A stretch of DNA of 64,000 bases from a virus, in the IMG/VR virus record IMGVR_UViG_3300035703_000069, positions 1-64,000 of that record. One strand, written 5' to 3'. The position numbers and the translations under genes were made by a program. Of the stretch, positions 18,054-57,785 are shown in pieces. Position 1 is the stretch's first letter. Every line of letters starts with the position of its first letter. The notes under the pieces were generated by a model. The model worked only from the letters and a program-made list of their open reading frames with translations. It was not told the DNA's origin and made no database searches.

Positions 18054-21000
18054 TCAGGCGGTGGTGGTGGACTTGATGATCACGAAGTTGAGAACCACCG
18101 CCTCAGACAGTGATCCAGCGGTGAGGTTGCGCAAGACGATCTTCACCGAACCGCTTGCAATGTCCAACGTACTGACCGAATAAGCGCCAGCTGTAGCGCC
18201 GGACTTAATGCTGACAGCAACAACATCCTGGGGCGAGATCTGGCTGTTTGTCAGTGTAAACGCGACGGCTGTATCAGCTGCCAACGCTGCACCGTTCATC
18301 GTGATCTGACCGCATGGCGTGTTCAGCGTGACGCCTGTGCTCTTGTCAGTCGACTGCGTGACGCTGCCGCCGCCCTGGGCGTAGCCGCACCACTCATCGA
18401 CGAATGCCATCCGGCCCAGCATCCCGGACACGGGCACCTCATCGGCGTCGGTGCCGGTCTCGAAGCTGAAGACCTTGGCGCTTAGCAGCGCGTTGTACTG
18501 GCGCCAGTAGTTCAGCCCAAGGTTGGTGATGACCTTGGGTTGGTTGTTGTCGAGGATCGCAGCGTCCGCACTCGGGATGGCACCGCCTTGGATGTCTTCG
18601 AGTGTGGCCAAAGCCACGGCGCCGAGTGGGCTCGGATCCGTCGATAGACTCGCGCTCAAGGAGAACGTCGGCTTGCCGAGGATGCTGACGTCGTTGAACG
18701 TGCTTGTGCCACCGGCGTTGATACCAGTGGGGAACTCGGTGACGGGATCTTCCTCCACCGTTGCCAAGGCTGTCAGGCTCTGGGACTGACCGGTGTTGAG
18801 GTCCTCAATGCCGGTGCTCTTGACGATGAAGCCCTCTTCGTTGAAGCCAGAGGGGTAGACGCGGCCACCGAGCTCGTTGGTGAAGTAGTAAGTGAACTTG
18901 TTAAGGGCGGAGAGCTGCTGCTGCACCGCCGGGAACGCCTTGGAGTAGTTGAGCGTGCCAGCCCACTCGAAGGCGTGCGCAAAGAGGCGCAGTACTGAGG
19001 GGCGGCGGAACTCGGCAGCCCAGCAGTTGCGCGAGGTGGCTAAGCCGCCGGATGGGGCGGTGGGGAAGTGGGTGGTGTTGTTGACCTTGCGGATGCGCTC
19101 AGTGGCCGCTCTCGGTTGGAGTGCGGTGTGTGCTGCGCTTTCGCTGAAACCCAGAGCGCGGAGGAATTGGTAGGCGCCGAGGTAGTCGTTGCTGGAGCGG
19201 TACTGATCCTGCAGCGACTTCGTTACACCGGTTGCACCGGTCGCGGTCCAGAGCGTCGAGAAGTCGAAGCCGAGCGTCGTGCTGGCTTGGACGTTTGCCG
19301 TGTCGTTGTCCAGGACCAGGGCGAAGCTCTCGTTGCTTTGCTTTTCGTCCGCCTGGTGGGCGTTAGGCATGTGGACATATGATTCCTGCCAGTCAGCCGC
19401 AGGAGGTGCACCCGAGCTCGGGGTGGTGGTGTCACGTAGAGCTGTGAAGTGCTTGCTGTTGTAGGTGACCGTTGTGCCTTCGCGGTAGAAGGTGCTGTTG
19501 GCGTAGATGATGCTGGGGTTTGTACGCCGCAGCTGGATCTCCATCCCCTTGTAGATGGCATTGAACTGCGGATAGTCCGCTGCTGTGATGTCGACGTTGA
19601 CAACACTGCTGATCGTCAGCGGCTCACTCGTGGGCAGGGTGCCGTTCACGTAGGGATCGACGTCCCCGAAGAGGGTCGGTGCTGTGGGGTCCAGCTGCAG
19701 GATGTAGTCCCGTTGCACCAGGCGGGTCGGTGCAACGACGGAGAACATACCGATGGAGAGGCGGCGCTCGGCGGCAGTGCGGGTGTCGACCAGACGACGG
19801 ATGTAAACGCGGCGGCCAACCGCTCGGTTGGTAACGCTGTTCGGAGGGATGCCCGGGCTGGTGCCGGCCTCGTCTTGGAGACCGGGGGCGTCGCCGGCTG
19901 TACCTTTCAGGCGGATCAGGTTGCCGTCGGCTGTGCTCCAGGCGTTGCTGGCTAGCTGGGCGCGCCAGTCCGTACCGTTGGGGTTTTCGACCCAGATGTA
20001 GCTGTCAGCGCGGAGGCTGTAACCGAGGTCGCCCAGGATCTTAGGCACCGTGGTGGATCCGTCCTGCGCGACGAGGTCATCGTTTAGGTAGATCCGAATG
20101 TCACCGTCGACGTAGCTTTCGACTGTGCCGAGGTAGTACTTTTGGATATTGCCTGTTTTCGCGCTCAAATTGAGCGGGGCTTTGAAGTAAGCAAAGCGCC
20201 ACTCTTTATCGAGATCGAATGCTTTGGACTTGTAGCCCGTGGAGATCGCGACGCAACCACCAAAGGAGCTGTTGGAGTTGGTGATCGAGATCTCGGCACC
20301 GCTCTCGGTGGCGTGGTGGACGCCTTGGCCGATGGCGAAGATCGAGACTTCTTGGATGAAGGCACCGTTGATCGCACGGATGTGGTAACTCCGGCGGGAG
20401 GGCTTCATCCGAACGTTGTTCGGATCGCTGGTGATGTAGGTCTCGTAGCTCGGCATCTGCTGCCAAGCGTTGGTTTGGTACAGCTCCCAGCAGGTCATGT
20501 CCTTCTGCAGGGACACGCCGGTGTAGTTGGCGGTCACCATGGACTTGAGGCCCTCGACCTTGGCGCCGTCTGCGTGGATCCCGCCCATGCCGTACTCGGA
20601 GCGGACCGAGCAGTTGAAGATGTAGGGCGAGGCGCTGGCGGTGGTGTCCCAGTCCGGGCCAGGGGTGTCGTCGATTGGGCCAACGATCTTGTACTCGGTG
20701 GCTCGGGTGACCGTCAGTGCGGCGCTGAGGTTGCCGCCGGAGCCCACCGAGCTGTACACCTTGGTATAGAAGGCATCGAGCTCGGTTTTGCTGGCGAAAC
20801 CAAAGCCGGAGAGCAGGTGATGGCTGCTGTTAGCATTCACCTTGTCCATGAAGGTGAAGCCGAAGAAGTAGCCGGTGCCGGTGATCTTGAAGATCTCGCT
20901 ACGGTTACTGCGATCAGCCAGCTCGTCGGTGTTGGCCGGTACCCAGGTAGGGCGGAAGGTGCATTTGCGCAGGTCCGGCCCGCAGAGTGAGCAGCCGCGG

Positions 21001-21575
21001 GGCAGGAGCACACCGCCGCTGGCGGGGTTGAACTTGATTAGCTCGGTTGAGTCGGGCTCGTAGCCGTCGACCCAGTTGCCGGTTGGGTTGCTGGTGCCGG
21101 GGTCGTTGTAGACCGTGTGGACACCGGGGGCGAGGACGATCGAGACGCAGTCGAGGTGCGCCCTCGGGTCGGTGTACGTGTACCAGCTCTTGCTGGTGAT
21201 GATGGCGGCTTCTATGACCGCCCGGTTGATTGTTTTGAAGGGGCGGCTCGGGGTATAGCCGCAGGTCAGGCGTTGCTTCTCAAGGCGTTTGAGCTTCGCG
21301 GCGATCTTTTCGTTATCGGTCGCGCCTGCTGGGAGCTCGTAGTCGTTGTAAGCACCAGCGGCGAATGTGTCGCTGCCGGTATAGGGGTTGACGTAGAGCG
21401 TGAAGGGTGCAGTGAGCGGGTCCACCATCTCGGTGTTGCCCGCCTTGACGTTGGCGTTACCCGCCAACTGACGCATCAGGTCGTTGAGCGTGGCGATCTG
21501 CTGCCGGAATTCGGCCTGCGTCGCATTGATGTTGTCGATGGCGCCTGTGACGCCGGCGTATTTCAGGCGAGCCAC
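18054..21575 (-). CDS. Large cyanophage-type tail fiber with beta-helix region
   Basis: 1173 residues, GTG start at 21575. The N-terminus (LKYAGVTGAIDNINATQAEF, RQQIATLNDLMRQLA) is a coiled-coil attachment part. About residues 60-470 are a right-handed beta-helix-like region of the pectate-lyase type (RPFKTINRAVIEAAI, a typical start, and SIFAIGQGVHHATESGAEIS). Later residues include RFAYFKAPLN and a C-terminal LGRMAFVDEWCGY motif related to the one in the 152-aa fiber at 14171. Probably a tail-spike or long fiber that binds or cleaves surface polysaccharide. Confidence 0.8.
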   Translation of the reverse strand: MARLKYAGVTGAIDNINATQAEFRQQIATLNDLMRQLAGNANVKAGNTEMVDPLTAPFTLYVNPYTGSDTFAAGAYNDYELPAGATDNEKIAAKLKRLEKQRLTCGYTPSRPFKTINRAVIEAAIITSKSWYTYTDPRAHLDCVSIVLAPGVHTVYNDPGTSNPTGNWVDGYEPDSTELIKFNPASGGVLLPRGCSLCGPDLRKCTFRPTWVPANTDELADRSNRSEIFKITGTGYFFGFTFMDKVNANSSHHLLSGFGFASKTELDAFYTKVYSSVGSGGNLSAALTVTRATEYKIVGPIDDTPGPDWDTTASASPYIFNCSVRSEYGMGGIHADGAKVEGLKSMVTANYTGVSLQKDMTCWELYQTNAWQQMPSYETYITSDPNNVRMKPSRRSYHIRAINGAFIQEVSIFAIGQGVHHATESGAEISITNSNSSFGGCVAISTGYKSKAFDLDKEWRFAYFKAPLNLSAKTGNIQKYYLGTVESYVDGDIRIYLNDDLVAQDGSTTVPKILGDLGYSLRADSYIWVENPNGTDWRAQLASNAWSTADGNLIRLKGTAGDAPGLQDEAGTSPGIPPNSVTNRAVGRRVYIRRLVDTRTAAERRLSIGMFSVVAPTRLVQRDYILQLDPTAPTLFGDVDPYVNGTLPTSEPLTISSVVNVDITAADYPQFNAIYKGMEIQLRRTNPSIIYANSTFYREGTTVTYNSKHFTALRDTTTPSSGAPPAADWQESYVHMPNAHQADEKQSNESFALVLDNDTANVQASTTLGFDFSTLWTATGATGVTKSLQDQYRSSNDYLGAYQFLRALGFSESAAHTALQPRAATERIRKVNNTTHFPTAPSGGLATSRNCWAAEFRRPSVLRLFAHAFEWAGTLNYSKAFPAVQQQLSALNKFTYYFTNELGGRVYPSGFNEEGFIVKSTGIEDLNTGQSQSLTALATVEEDPVTEFPTGINAGGTSTFNDVSILGKPTFSLSASLSTDPSPLGAVALATLEDIQGGAIPSADAAILDNNQPKVITNLGLNYWRQYNALLSAKVFSFETGTDADEVPVSGMLGRMAFVDEWCGYAQGGGSVTQSTDKSTGVTLNTPCGQITMNGAALAADTAVAFTLTNSQISPQDVVAVSIKSGATAGAYSVSTLDIASGSVKIVLRNLTAGSLSEAVVLNFVIIKSTTTA

Positions 21576-54864: not shown

Positions 54865-55043
54865 GCGACCTCGTAGGTGCTGCCGACGTACTTCTGCCAG
54901 AGGCCCGTGTAGGTGTGGTGCAATGGGTGGTCGCTCCGATCGCGGCCGTCGTAGGCGTAGAGCGTGTCGAGGAGCTCGGTGCGGGCCAACTGCACCAGGG
55001 GGTCGCACCCTGGCATGAACGAGTGGGAAGTGGTCTCAGACAT
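54861..55043 (-). CDS. Small hypothetical protein
   Basis: 60 residues: SFMPGCDPLVQLARTELLDT, then RDRSDHPLHHTYTGLWQKYV. Overlaps the next gene as ATGA. No domain recognised; early operon member. Confidence 0.55.
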   Translation of the reverse strand: MSETTSHSFMPGCDPLVQLARTELLDTLYAYDGRDRSDHPLHHTYTGLWQKYVGSTYEVA

Positions 55044-55064
55044 GAACAGGGTGCGATGGGGTGA

Positions 55065-55253
55065 TTAGAAGTCGTCCTCGGTGGCGAGGAGGTCTGCCTC
55101 GAGCGCGCGCGAAGCGGAGCGGAGTGACTTCGTCTGGCGACCGGCGCGGTCGACAGCCTCGGCGGTGTCACCGACGGCACTAAGCAGAGGGCCGGCGACA
55201 GGGGCGAGCTCTTGGCAATACGAGGCGAGTGAAGTCCAGAACGATTGAGTCAT
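55065..55253 (-). CDS. Small helical hypothetical protein
   Basis: 62 residues from ATG 55253: TQSFWTSLASYCQELAPVAG, then TAEAVDRAGRQTKSLRSASR. A short amphipathic helix and an acidic tail (LATEDDF). Early operon member of unknown role. Confidence 0.5.
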   Translation of the reverse strand: MTQSFWTSLASYCQELAPVAGPLLSAVGDTAEAVDRAGRQTKSLRSASRALEADLLATEDDF

Positions 55254-55273
55254 GACGAGATGCGTGGATGATT

Positions 55274-55465
55274 TCAGAACAGCGGAGCGCGGAGCGCCAC
55301 GATGCGGAGGTTGGACCAACCGAGCTTGAGAAGAGCTCGGGCACGTAGGCCGGCGGTGTCCAGATCCGCGAAGCGGACCGCGGCGAAGGGGTCTGAGACC
55401 TCTTCGACAGGGACGCCACCGATGCCGGTGCAGGCGGCGAGGAAGCCGGCCTCGGTGCGAATCAC
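55274..55465 (-). CDS. Small hypothetical protein, start uncertain
   Basis: 63 residues if begun at the GTG at 55465 (VIRTEAGFLAACTGIGGVPV, then SDPFAAVRFADLDTAGLRAR and LKLGWSNLRIVALRAPLF). The frame can extend to 55549, but that would overlap the upstream gene by 80 bp, so the short form is preferred. A small alpha/beta layout; unknown. Confidence 0.5.
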   Translation of the reverse strand: MIRTEAGFLAACTGIGGVPVEEVSDPFAAVRFADLDTAGLRARALLKLGWSNLRIVALRAPLF

Positions 55466-55469
55466 ATAC

Positions 55470-55655
55470 CTAGTGGTGTAGTGACGGCATGACAAAGGAT
55501 CCTGCAGGAACAAAGCGGGAATCGATGCCACGTTGTTTGAGATTTGCATTGGCTTTTAGGATTTCATTGGCTGTAGCAAAGGTGGTGTAAAGCGCTATTC
55601 CTGTGGTGATCTGCATTAGTTCATACGCAGCAAAACCTGCCATGGATGTGTCCAT
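55470..55655 (-). CDS. Small hypothetical protein
   Basis: 61 residues: DTSMAGFAAYELMQITTGIA, LYTTFATANEILKANANLKQ, then RGIDSRFVPAGSFVMPSLHH. A second ATG at codon 5 is equally likely. GC content is lower than in its neighbours. Helical. Unknown. The 165-bp gap 55656-55820 holds only the plus-strand terminator. Confidence 0.5.
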   Translation of the reverse strand: MDTSMAGFAAYELMQITTGIALYTTFATANEILKANANLKQRGIDSRFVPAGSFVMPSLHH

Positions 55656-55789
55656 GTCGACGGGCGGTGAAGAACGCGGTGCGGGTTGGTGCGGCTGAGG
55701 GCAGGGCCCGCTTGGTCATTCTGCCGCGCTTCCCATAGGGTGGGAGCGCGCAGGCTCGGTGAACTCACAGCGACCTGCGTGGATGATCC

Positions 55790-55819
55790 GCCCTGGGGGT
55801 GAGAGCCCAGGGCGTTTTT
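55790..55819 (+). terminator. Plus-strand terminator inside a minus-strand operon
   Basis: GCCCTGGG (55790-55797) and CCCAGGGC (55806-55813), loop GGTGAGAG, then GTTTTT. The T tract is on the plus strand, so it ends rightward transcripts although all genes here run leftward. It starts one base beyond the stop of the Csx16-like gene. Either an antisense RNA ends here or the hairpin protects the 3' end of that mRNA. Confidence 0.7.
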
Positions 55820-55820
55820 C

Positions 55821-56114
55821 TCAAACGCGGCGCACTCGGTAGGTGACGAGCTCGGCGCCTGCGGCGTCCATCTCTTGGACGGAGAGGACACCGCGGTTGA
55901 AGCGGTCGCGGTCAGCGCGGTCAAGGCCGGGCATGGTGACTTCGGAGACGCACTCGGCGAAGGCGGCCATCCAGTAGGGGACGATGCCGTAGACGTGACG
56001 GTGCGCGACATCACCAGGGTTGGCGTACTCGAGCACGGGTGCTTTGACGCCCTTGTCATTGAGCCAAGCGATCAGGCTTTGGTTCTTAGTAACGATGATG
56101 TTGCTTTCGGACAT
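55821..56114 (-). CDS. Csx16-family protein (Cas_VVA1548-like), candidate anti-CRISPR
   Basis: 97 residues. The family pattern is followed along the whole length: IIVTKNQSLIAWLNDKGVKA, a loop with EYANPGDVAHRHVYGIVPYW (the family has G-D-x-V-x-G-x-L-P-V), MAAFAECVSEVTMPGLDR, then RGVLSVQEMDAAGAELVTYR (family R-G-x-E-L-s-x-e-e-M-x-x-x-G-A). Csx16 genes normally accompany type III CRISPR systems, which signal through cyclic oligoadenylate; I recall that such accessories include enzymes that remove the signal. In a phage, a signal-degrading or signal-binding protein would act against the host defence. Lies between a terminator and a plus-strand terminator, as if separately controlled. Confidence 0.7.
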   Translation of the reverse strand: MSESNIIVTKNQSLIAWLNDKGVKAPVLEYANPGDVAHRHVYGIVPYWMAAFAECVSEVTMPGLDRADRDRFNRGVLSVQEMDAAGAELVTYRVRRV

Positions 56115-56143
56115 TAGAGAAAGAGTGAAAGAATTGTGTGGAT

Positions 56144-56161
56144 AAAAGGGGCTGAAGCCCC
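56144..56161 (-). terminator. Short terminator 29 bp before the Csx16-like gene
   Basis: Minus strand GGGGC-TTCA-GCCCC (56161-56148) followed by TTTTAT. It lies in the 103-bp gap after the HNH gene. Partial termination here would lower expression of the Csx16-like gene and the genes after it. Confidence 0.65.
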
Positions 56162-56217
56162 GAAATCACACAAGGGCAAGACAAGCTTGCCGCGGGCAAC
56201 GAGTGGAGGACGTAAGG

Positions 56218-56715
56218 TTAGGCCACGTGTTTCCATACCTTGCGGAGTCGGACAAGGCTAATTAAAGATGCGTCTACGCCAAAGCGTTCTGCCATGACAT
56301 TAAGAGGAGCGTCCGAGTCGCGAATGATCCGCACAGCCCCTTCAGTAAGTTTGGCCCTGGGGTTTGCTGAGCCTTTCAGCCCTACCCTGCGGTTTCTCAA
56401 TGCCGTGTCTTTCATGTTTTGTACATGATCACCGACATAAAGATGCGCTGGATTGCAGCAACGTGTGTTGTCACAGGTATGCAAAGCATGCTCAGTAGGT
56501 AAAAGCTCTCTATTAAGTGAGAGGGCTAATGCAACACGATGGGCGCGGACCATCCGTCCTCGTAGACAGATGGCGCCGTAACCGAGACCGGAGCCTTTAA
56601 GGCATCCTTGCCATTCCCAACACTCATTGCCCATTCCCCTTTGCACCTTGGACCAGAAGCGCTGCTCAAACAAACTGCGCTCTTCCGAATCACACGGAGG
56701 TAAAAGCAACGTCAT
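56218..56715 (-). CDS. HNH homing endonuclease with C-terminal helix-turn-helix
   Basis: 165 residues from ATG 56715 (ATGA with the DUF932 stop; a GTG at 56730 is also open). RFWSKVQRGMGNECWEWQGC, GYGAICLRGRMVRAHRVALA and HALHTCDNTRCCNPAHLYVG, then DHVQNMKD, form the HNH_3-type nuclease (H, N-P-x-H-L). NPRAKLTEGAVRIIRDSD and FGVDASLISLVRLRKVW add a DNA-binding end. A free-standing mobile gene within the early operon; lower GC fits later arrival. Confidence 0.85.
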   Translation of the reverse strand: MTLLLPPCDSEERSLFEQRFWSKVQRGMGNECWEWQGCLKGSGLGYGAICLRGRMVRAHRVALALSLNRELLPTEHALHTCDNTRCCNPAHLYVGDHVQNMKDTALRNRRVGLKGSANPRAKLTEGAVRIIRDSDAPLNVMAERFGVDASLISLVRLRKVWKHVA

Positions 56716-57785
56716 ACCAATGCCAGACACGCTTCACGTGCACGGGTGATGCGGCGTGCACTTTCCCCGCCCCAAAGACTGGTAAGGCGGATGCGGGCGC
56801 GCTCGGTTTCGTCTTTGGCGCGGCCGACGTCGTGTGTTTCGGCCTGGGTGATGGCGTTGAACAAGCCGTAGACGGTGCCGGCCACGCCGGGGATGTCGCG
56901 GATCCCTAGGCCGGTTTCGCCGGCGTAGTGGCTGCGGATCGTGGCGACCTCGGGGATGTCACCGAGGGTGCGGGGACGGGTGGCACCGGACTTGTCCTTG
57001 TAAGGGGTGGCGAGCTTGTCGGCGTAGGTGGTCTCGAGGACGCGACGGGCGATCTCAGTGGTGAGTTGCACGTTGGTGAGGTCGCGCAGTTCGTTGATTG
57101 ATTGGCGGAAGCTCCGGCGCTCCAGGTCGATCAGCAGCGGGAGGCGCTCGGCGAACTGCGTGACGGATGCGGTGTGCTTGGCGCGGAGCCCGGCGCCCTT
57201 GGCGACGGCTTTGCCCACCGCTTTGCCGGTGAGATAGGCGAGCTGGTTGGCGCAGCGCAGGCGGACGTCGCTGAAGAACACGCCGAAGCCGGAGCTCCCG
57301 TCATGGGAGTTGAACAGATGCAAGTAGCGGCGCACCTTGTCGCCGGGGACGACCTCGTCCTCGGTGTCGATTGAGGCGGTGGCGAACACCTTGCGGCCGT
57401 CACGGATCGAGAGGACGTTCTCGATGGTGACGTCCTCGTGGAGGTAGTCGAGGAGGTTGATCAGGGCGTCGTTCTGCACCGGGGTGTAGCCGGAGCCGTG
57501 GATGCCGAGCAGGGCGTCGGTGTCGCTGCGGACGATGGAGCAGTGCTCGGGGGACTGCATCGGGCCGTCCGGTCCCATGAAGAACGCGGGGCGCTTGTCG
57601 GCGGTCCAGTTGAGGCCGGCGATCTCGAAGGCGTCACGGGCGGTGACGTTCTCGGGGACCATGGTGCCGACGCGGCCGATGAGCGGGTTCACGGCGTAGC
57701 CCTTGTCGCGGTAGCGGCCGTAGACCAGCGGGCCGGTGCCGTCGGCGGCGTAGGCGGTGCTGACGCGGTTGGCGGTGAAAGTCAC
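56712..57785 (-). CDS. DUF932 / YfjQ-like phage-plasmid protein
   Basis: 357 residues from GTG 57785; a TTG at 57845 is also possible. NVTARDAFEIAGLNWTADKR, LLGIHGSGYTPVQNDALINL, RKVFATASIDTEDEVVPGDK and FNSHDGSSGFGVFFSDVRLR, then CANQL, match the DUF932 family found in many phages and plasmids and often next to replication or recombination functions. Biochemical role unknown. Its stop overlaps the HNH start. Confidence 0.8.
   Translation of the reverse strand: MTFTANRVSTAYAADGTGPLVYGRYRDKGYAVNPLIGRVGTMVPENVTARDAFEIAGLNWTADKRPAFFMGPDGPMQSPEHCSIVRSDTDALLGIHGSGYTPVQNDALINLLDYLHEDVTIENVLSIRDGRKVFATASIDTEDEVVPGDKVRRYLHLFNSHDGSSGFGVFFSDVRLRCANQLAYLTGKAVGKAVAKGAGLRAKHTASVTQFAERLPLLIDLERRSFRQSINELRDLTNVQLTTEIARRVLETTYADKLATPYKDKSGATRPRTLGDIPEVATIRSHYAGETGLGIRDIPGVAGTVYGLFNAITQAETHDVGRAKDETERARIRLTSLWGGESARRITRAREACLALV

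Follow-up and report, generated by a model that had tools for sequence, protein, structure and literature searches.

The window, a stretch of 64,000 nucleotides that is part of a 70,476-bp IMG/VR virus record, carries a gene (positions 55821-56114, minus strand; open reading frame with an ATG start, 97 aa) whose product is, by sequence comparison, a homologue of Csx16, an accessory protein of type III CRISPR loci. In the clade of cyanophages that encode it, the motif-I His found in host Csx16 has been replaced by Asn, and the gene is maintained by purifying selection. Our tentative reading, to which we give somewhat less than an even chance, is that the product serves in counter-defence by binding a cyclic-nucleotide signal, as a sponge or with altered specificity, rather than by canonical cleavage.

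Homology of the phage protein to Csx16

In hmmscan, residues 7-94 of the window protein aligned with positions 2-90 of the 91 in the PF09652 profile (Cas_VVA1548, Csx16) at E = 1.1e-5, which agrees with the full-length Csx16 pattern recognised in the preliminary description. The individual elements named there are also in place: the N-terminal strand and helix (beta strand 5-8 and helix 12-20 in the predicted structure), the G-x-V/P core (G43-I-V-P46) and the C-terminal motif R74-G-x-x-S-x-x-E-M-x-x-x-G-A87. The score, 26 bits where the curated cut-off is 25, leaves a margin that is thin by itself, and the whole family of homologues was therefore tested. Three PADLOC Csx16 models matched as well (E = 2.7e-6, 0.0017 and 0.017), while NCBIfam returned zero matches at E<=1, so that the check suggested earlier against PF09652/TIGR02620 succeeded for the former and failed for the TIGR02620 type.

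Relatives of the gene were present in viral contigs at 16 loci, and at 25 after a second scan. The 12 phage homologues that were aligned are 61-100% identical to the window protein, and all of them match both PF09652 (best E = 1.1e-7) and PADLOC Csx16 (best E = 5.7e-9), with matches counted at E<=10. Among ten other virus records, PF09652 scored above the cut-off in eight and reached 24 and 22.9 bits in two. Set against a second alignment, built from 28 Csx16 sequences of which 27 came from bacterial genomes and one from the viral contig L107, the phage alignment reached a probability of 97.4% and E = 8.9e-12 in hhalign; together with the 12/12 matches, this shows that the resemblance goes beyond chance and reflects homology. 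Pairwise dN/dS among the relatives is 0.06-0.38, and the gene is thus under purifying selection. The first scan of bacterial genome contigs with the window protein yielded zero relatives, and tblastn against the phage collection gave nothing convincing, the best matches being phage exonuclease genes at E = 0.07. Designed proteins (DARPins, a TIM barrel) returned by a search of the sequences of solved structures were put down to chance.

Genomic neighbourhood and probable host

The virus record encodes a terminase, a major capsid protein, a Mu F-like protein, a DNA polymerase A and a primase-polymerase. The tail-fibre region matched 460 records, all of the cyanophage type (Synechococcus, Prochlorococcus and other cyanophages, together with seven marine virus records), and the closest matches of the terminase are from Cylindrospermopsis and Nodularia phages, which makes a cyanobacterial host likely. 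The tail-fibre protein at 18054-21575 is related to those of T4-like cyanophages and is found here in a 70-kb phage with a family A DNA polymerase.

A scan of approximately 25 window proteins turned up no cas genes, and the window contained no CRISPR-like direct repeats, in line with the earlier remark that CRISPR genes are missing from the vicinity; the setting of the gene is a phage neighbourhood, not a type III CRISPR locus at or near it. AcrIII-1/Crn2 was rejected as a second anti-CRISPR, with PF08960 absent from all 11 records (the window's own and ten related virus records). The preliminary description had placed the gene in an early operon, for which we found no support: it lies between a DUF932 gene and a block of small genes toward dCTP deaminase and terminase. 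The DUF932/TIGR03299 phage gene (56712-57845, minus strand; assigned by domain matches) is its conserved upstream neighbour. In 24 of the 25 loci found first, the neighbourhood is shared, with the csx16-like gene downstream of DUF932 wherever the contig extends that far and the same small genes, then dCTP deaminase and terminase, on its 3' side; the exception is L029, a phage whose genes are organised differently.

In the window, an HNH endonuclease gene (56218-56730, minus strand) separates DUF932 from the csx16-like gene, an arrangement that is unique to it among close relatives. The HNH gene looks like a mobile insertion, since it is missing from L002, whose csx16-like protein is identical, and from L003, yet adjoins DUF932 in L244 and L256. 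In L003 (3813-5291), DUF932 and the csx16-like protein form a single 492-aa open frame that does not recur in the near-identical L004 and may be either a fusion or a sequencing error.

Is the csx16-like gene, then, a core gene of these phages? In a comparison anchored on DUF932, 18 relatives possessed it and 34 did not, the latter counted only where enough flank was available around DUF932. This distribution rejects a core role, and the gene is therefore accessory and was gained within one clade. Many phages without it have a gene for approximately 113-133 aa in the same slot, and some phages have both; one such protein family, of approximately 133 aa with the motif M-Q-I-P-D-T-P-E-x-L-F-E, is present in L239 (9145-9546), L241 (9292-9690) and L232 (9592-9999).

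Another question is whether the gene is controlled individually, as had been proposed from an upstream terminator and a downstream hairpin. A terminator-like hairpin (GGGGCTTCAGCCCC TTTTATCC; fold z -3.2) does exist upstream at 56148-56161 on the minus strand, but it lacks clear conservation and is distinct in the window and L002 only. A 9-bp hairpin just 3' of the gene (55789-55814, plus strand) is kept in L003, L008/L009, L016, L031, L033 and L037 with differing stem sequences, apparently through compensatory change, and is absent from L005, L006, L010-L012 and L015. It is no intrinsic terminator for the csx16-like gene, because its T-run is on the plus strand and the gene on the minus strand. 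The stretch 55000-57000 yielded no sigma-70-like promoter. Individual control is a weak proposition, possible at most.

Conserved residues and predicted structure

The host Csx16 set of 82 sequences was assembled from plasmids, bacterial genome contigs and two HMM searches covering genomes from the phylum and from the order to which L072 belongs, in which 13 of 399 and 13 of 300 were positive. The search for host Csx16 used a consensus-like query, and only annotated records found in this way counted as evidence; the host scan pattern partly demanded SRHP, and His conservation was rechecked on 26 sequences gathered without this demand. The motif-I His is invariant in all 81 host sequences with a residue at this position, as are the second His, the G and P of G-x-L-P, and R-G (82/82 each).

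The window protein lacks the [ST]-R-H of motif I and has Asn11 at the position of the His (codon 56082-56084, minus strand), as do all 17 distinct cyanophage sequences (15/15, plus L193 and L278). The second host His (H29) corresponds to Tyr30 (codon 56025-56027, minus strand), and of 15 phage sequences, 12 have Tyr there and 3 have His. The G-x-L-P loop is kept as G43-I-V-P46, Leu being replaced by Val in 10 of 15 phage sequences. In the R-G-x-E region, R74-G75 is there and the E is missing; alignment with canonical intermediates pairs the host R with R69 instead of R74, and L193 and L278 have Ala where the window protein has R74. His38 (codon 56001-56003, minus strand), Gly in most hosts, is invariant in the Asn clade, as are R66, R69 and R71. 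The last three belong to a segment fixed in this clade, L-D-R-x-D-R-D-R-F-N, of which residues 66-73 (RADRDRFN; 55896-55919, minus strand), in a clade-specific insert region, are modelled by AF2 as an added helix that the host model does not have. Thus, G-x-x-P, Trp17 and one Arg are retained, so that the residues conserved in hosts are by no means all lost, whereas the motif-I His has become Asn and the second His Tyr. On account of these two replacements, the first of them in 17/17 sequences, the activity of the host enzyme need not carry over to the window protein.

The AF2 models (pLDDT 88.8 for the phage protein and 95.6 for a host Csx16) share an alpha/beta derived-Rossmann core with the same order of secondary-structure elements, apart from the one additional helix and a shortened helix 3 in the phage model. 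His38 is predicted just before or at the start of beta 3. With Foldseek, the phage model matched nothing in the PDB and viral libraries at E<=0.001, and its best CARF match in the PDB, Cad1, was not significant (E = 0.21); the host model matched the PDB weakly, its best matches being CARF ring nucleases and an effector bound to cA4.

A mobile-element branch of Csx16

Viral contigs L302, L303, L305 and L306/L307 encode Csx16 in which R/K-H and the second His are intact, as is R-G except in L305 (K-G). Against the host profile these proteins score at approximately 1e-17 to 1e-23, and against the phage profile at 1e-19 to 1e-24; those of L302-L306 have the E-M-D-A-A-G-A block in common with the cyanophage clade. 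In a tree of 50 sequences, rooted at the midpoint and with a bootstrap that has not fully settled, Csx16 of mobile elements is split from a branch consisting mainly of CRISPR-locus sequences (support 100/98). The mobile-element branch comprises phages of the L302-L306 type and two Deinococcota plasmids, and nested inside it as a single group is the Asn clade (support 100/99). The change from His to Asn needs just one event on this tree, and the 17 Asn sequences are therefore not independent observations of the change; within the same tree, their divergence shows that Asn has been retained since. Since some phages carry Csx16 with the canonical residues and the Asn clade is nested in their branch, that clade probably descends from a functional Csx16 already carried by a phage.

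Canonical residues are also seen in the Csx16 of the Methanobacterium viruses Drs3 and PhiF3, which are grouped apart from the clade of the window; phage Csx16 has already been reported in 2 of 28,114 phage genomes (PMC12409355), and these are probably the same two viruses. In plasmid pMESIL02 of Allomeiothermus silvanus (L045:2995-5010), a 671-aa protein has a canonical Csx16 domain at its N-terminus and a second, degenerate Csx16-like domain with the motif-I Asn as in the cyanophage clade; the displayed flanks contain zero cas genes. The viral contig L107 (5884-6303; IMGVR_UViG_3300033149_003399), possibly from an archaeal virus, encodes a canonical Csx16 close to that of L043, a plasmid of an uncultured archaeon.

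Discussion

The window protein resembles Csx16 of type III CRISPR loci (PF09652) in length, element order, the G-x-x-P loop, the helix-1 Trp and the C-terminal E-M-x-x-x-G-A-x-x-x-x-Y-x-V block, and differs from it in having Asn for the motif-I His, Tyr for the second His, an R-G-x-E that is not intact, an added Arg-rich helix and no cas genes nearby. The canonical proteins of L302, L303, L305, L306, Drs3 and PhiF3 are likewise borne by mobile elements but still have R/K-H and the second His, together with R-G or, in L305, K-G; moreover, Drs3 and PhiF3 are archaeal viruses, unlike the probable cyanophage of the window. Csx15, a small protein of the CARF superfamily, as is the window protein, is comparable by its mechanism as described in PMC13148439, although it retains the motif-I His. 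AcrIII-1/Crn2 offers a parallel as phage counter-defence through cA4 removal and differs in that PF08960 has no match in the 11 records.

By experiment, Csx16 is a cA4-specific ring nuclease (PMC12409355). In Csx15, mutation of the motif-I His abolishes cleavage in CliCsx15 (H13A), whereas the orphan PfCsx15 sequesters cA4, cleaves it barely or not at all and no longer binds it when the corresponding His is mutated (H11A) (PMC13148439). By analogy, the motif-I His would be catalytic in Csx16 itself.

These data raise a key question: what could a phage gain from a Csx16 without this His? In the reading that we favour, the small CARF-like (derived Rossmann) protein would bind a cyclic-nucleotide alarm signal of the infected cyanobacterium, most simply a cyclic oligoadenylate made by the Cas10 of a type III CRISPR system, and withhold it from its effector, which would amount to counter-defence. 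We infer sequestration, or else an altered ligand or catalytic site, to be more likely than canonical cA4 ring nuclease activity, because no member of the clade has the motif-I His, yet the fold, G-x-x-P and an enlarged set of conserved Arg residues stay. The suggestion of the preliminary description that the phage copy blunts a type III signal survives in part: the protein is a phage homologue within a family of cA4 ring nucleases (PMC12409355) and no cas genes were found, but Asn11 and Tyr30 occupy the positions of the host His residues. Homology to Csx16 and the matching element order of the models would favour such a binding role, as would the assayed activity of host Csx16 and the weak CARF and cA4 matches of its model; PfCsx15 offers a sponge precedent in the related Csx15. 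The gene itself is an accessory gain in one clade (18 relatives with it, 34 without), is present in L029 and has dN/dS of 0.06-0.38. On the other side, Asn at this position might abolish cA4 binding, as H11A does in PfCsx15 (PMC13148439), and CRISPR occurs in just a few freshwater picocyanobacteria (PMC9361551), which counts against the reading if those are the hosts; these are the strongest counter-arguments. The phage model also has no significant PDB match, the best CARF candidate being Cad1.

Canonical anti-CRISPR activity, in which the protein would cleave cA4 catalytically as host Csx16 and AcrIII-1 do but through other residues (e.g., His38, His40 or Arg69), seems improbable to us. Cleavage is the activity of the family, phage relatives retain the full motif, and His38 and the Arg cluster are newly fixed in the Asn clade; yet both host His residues have been replaced, the second one mostly, and the topology would put His38, where beta 3 begins, and the motif-I loop on opposite edges, except in stacked dimers. 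Less doubtful, though still unlikely, is that the protein has left nucleotide signalling and, with its fold kept and another ligand or partner, has become a regulatory or structural helper of the phage, tied to DUF932. The loss of both His residues in the window protein, the single neighbourhood in 24/25 loci and the divergence of the phage model (new helix, shortened helix 3) are consistent with this role. However, the accessory distribution and the presence of the gene in the differently organised L029 are more easily reconciled with cargo than with a core function, and the branch within which the Asn clade falls is one of mobile Csx16 with canonical residues. A chance or spurious likeness of the open reading frame to PF09652, for which the single bit above the cut-off and the silence of NCBIfam could be cited, has next to no probability in view of the 12/12 matching homologues and the profile-profile E of 8.9e-12; the canonical phage intermediates, with their scores of 1e-17 to 1e-24 against host and phage profiles, already refute it.

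If the sponge reading is carried further, the Asn clade would make up a class of its own among viral sponges for cyclic nucleotides, a ring nuclease minus its catalytic His with the site rebuilt around His38 and the Arg-rich helix, possibly for a signal of cyanobacteria other than cA4 (CBASS-type or another); we regard this extension as improbable. Within Csx16, which had been reported from only two phage genomes (PMC12409355), a mobile-element branch is now resolved, and it includes a whole phage clade in which the predicted fold has been kept under purifying selection with the likely catalytic residue replaced. Calls of viral ring nucleases based on HMMs can thus exaggerate activity. Moreover, it becomes testable whether a ring nuclease can be converted to a sponge, and which signal such a protein would meet in cyanobacterial hosts.
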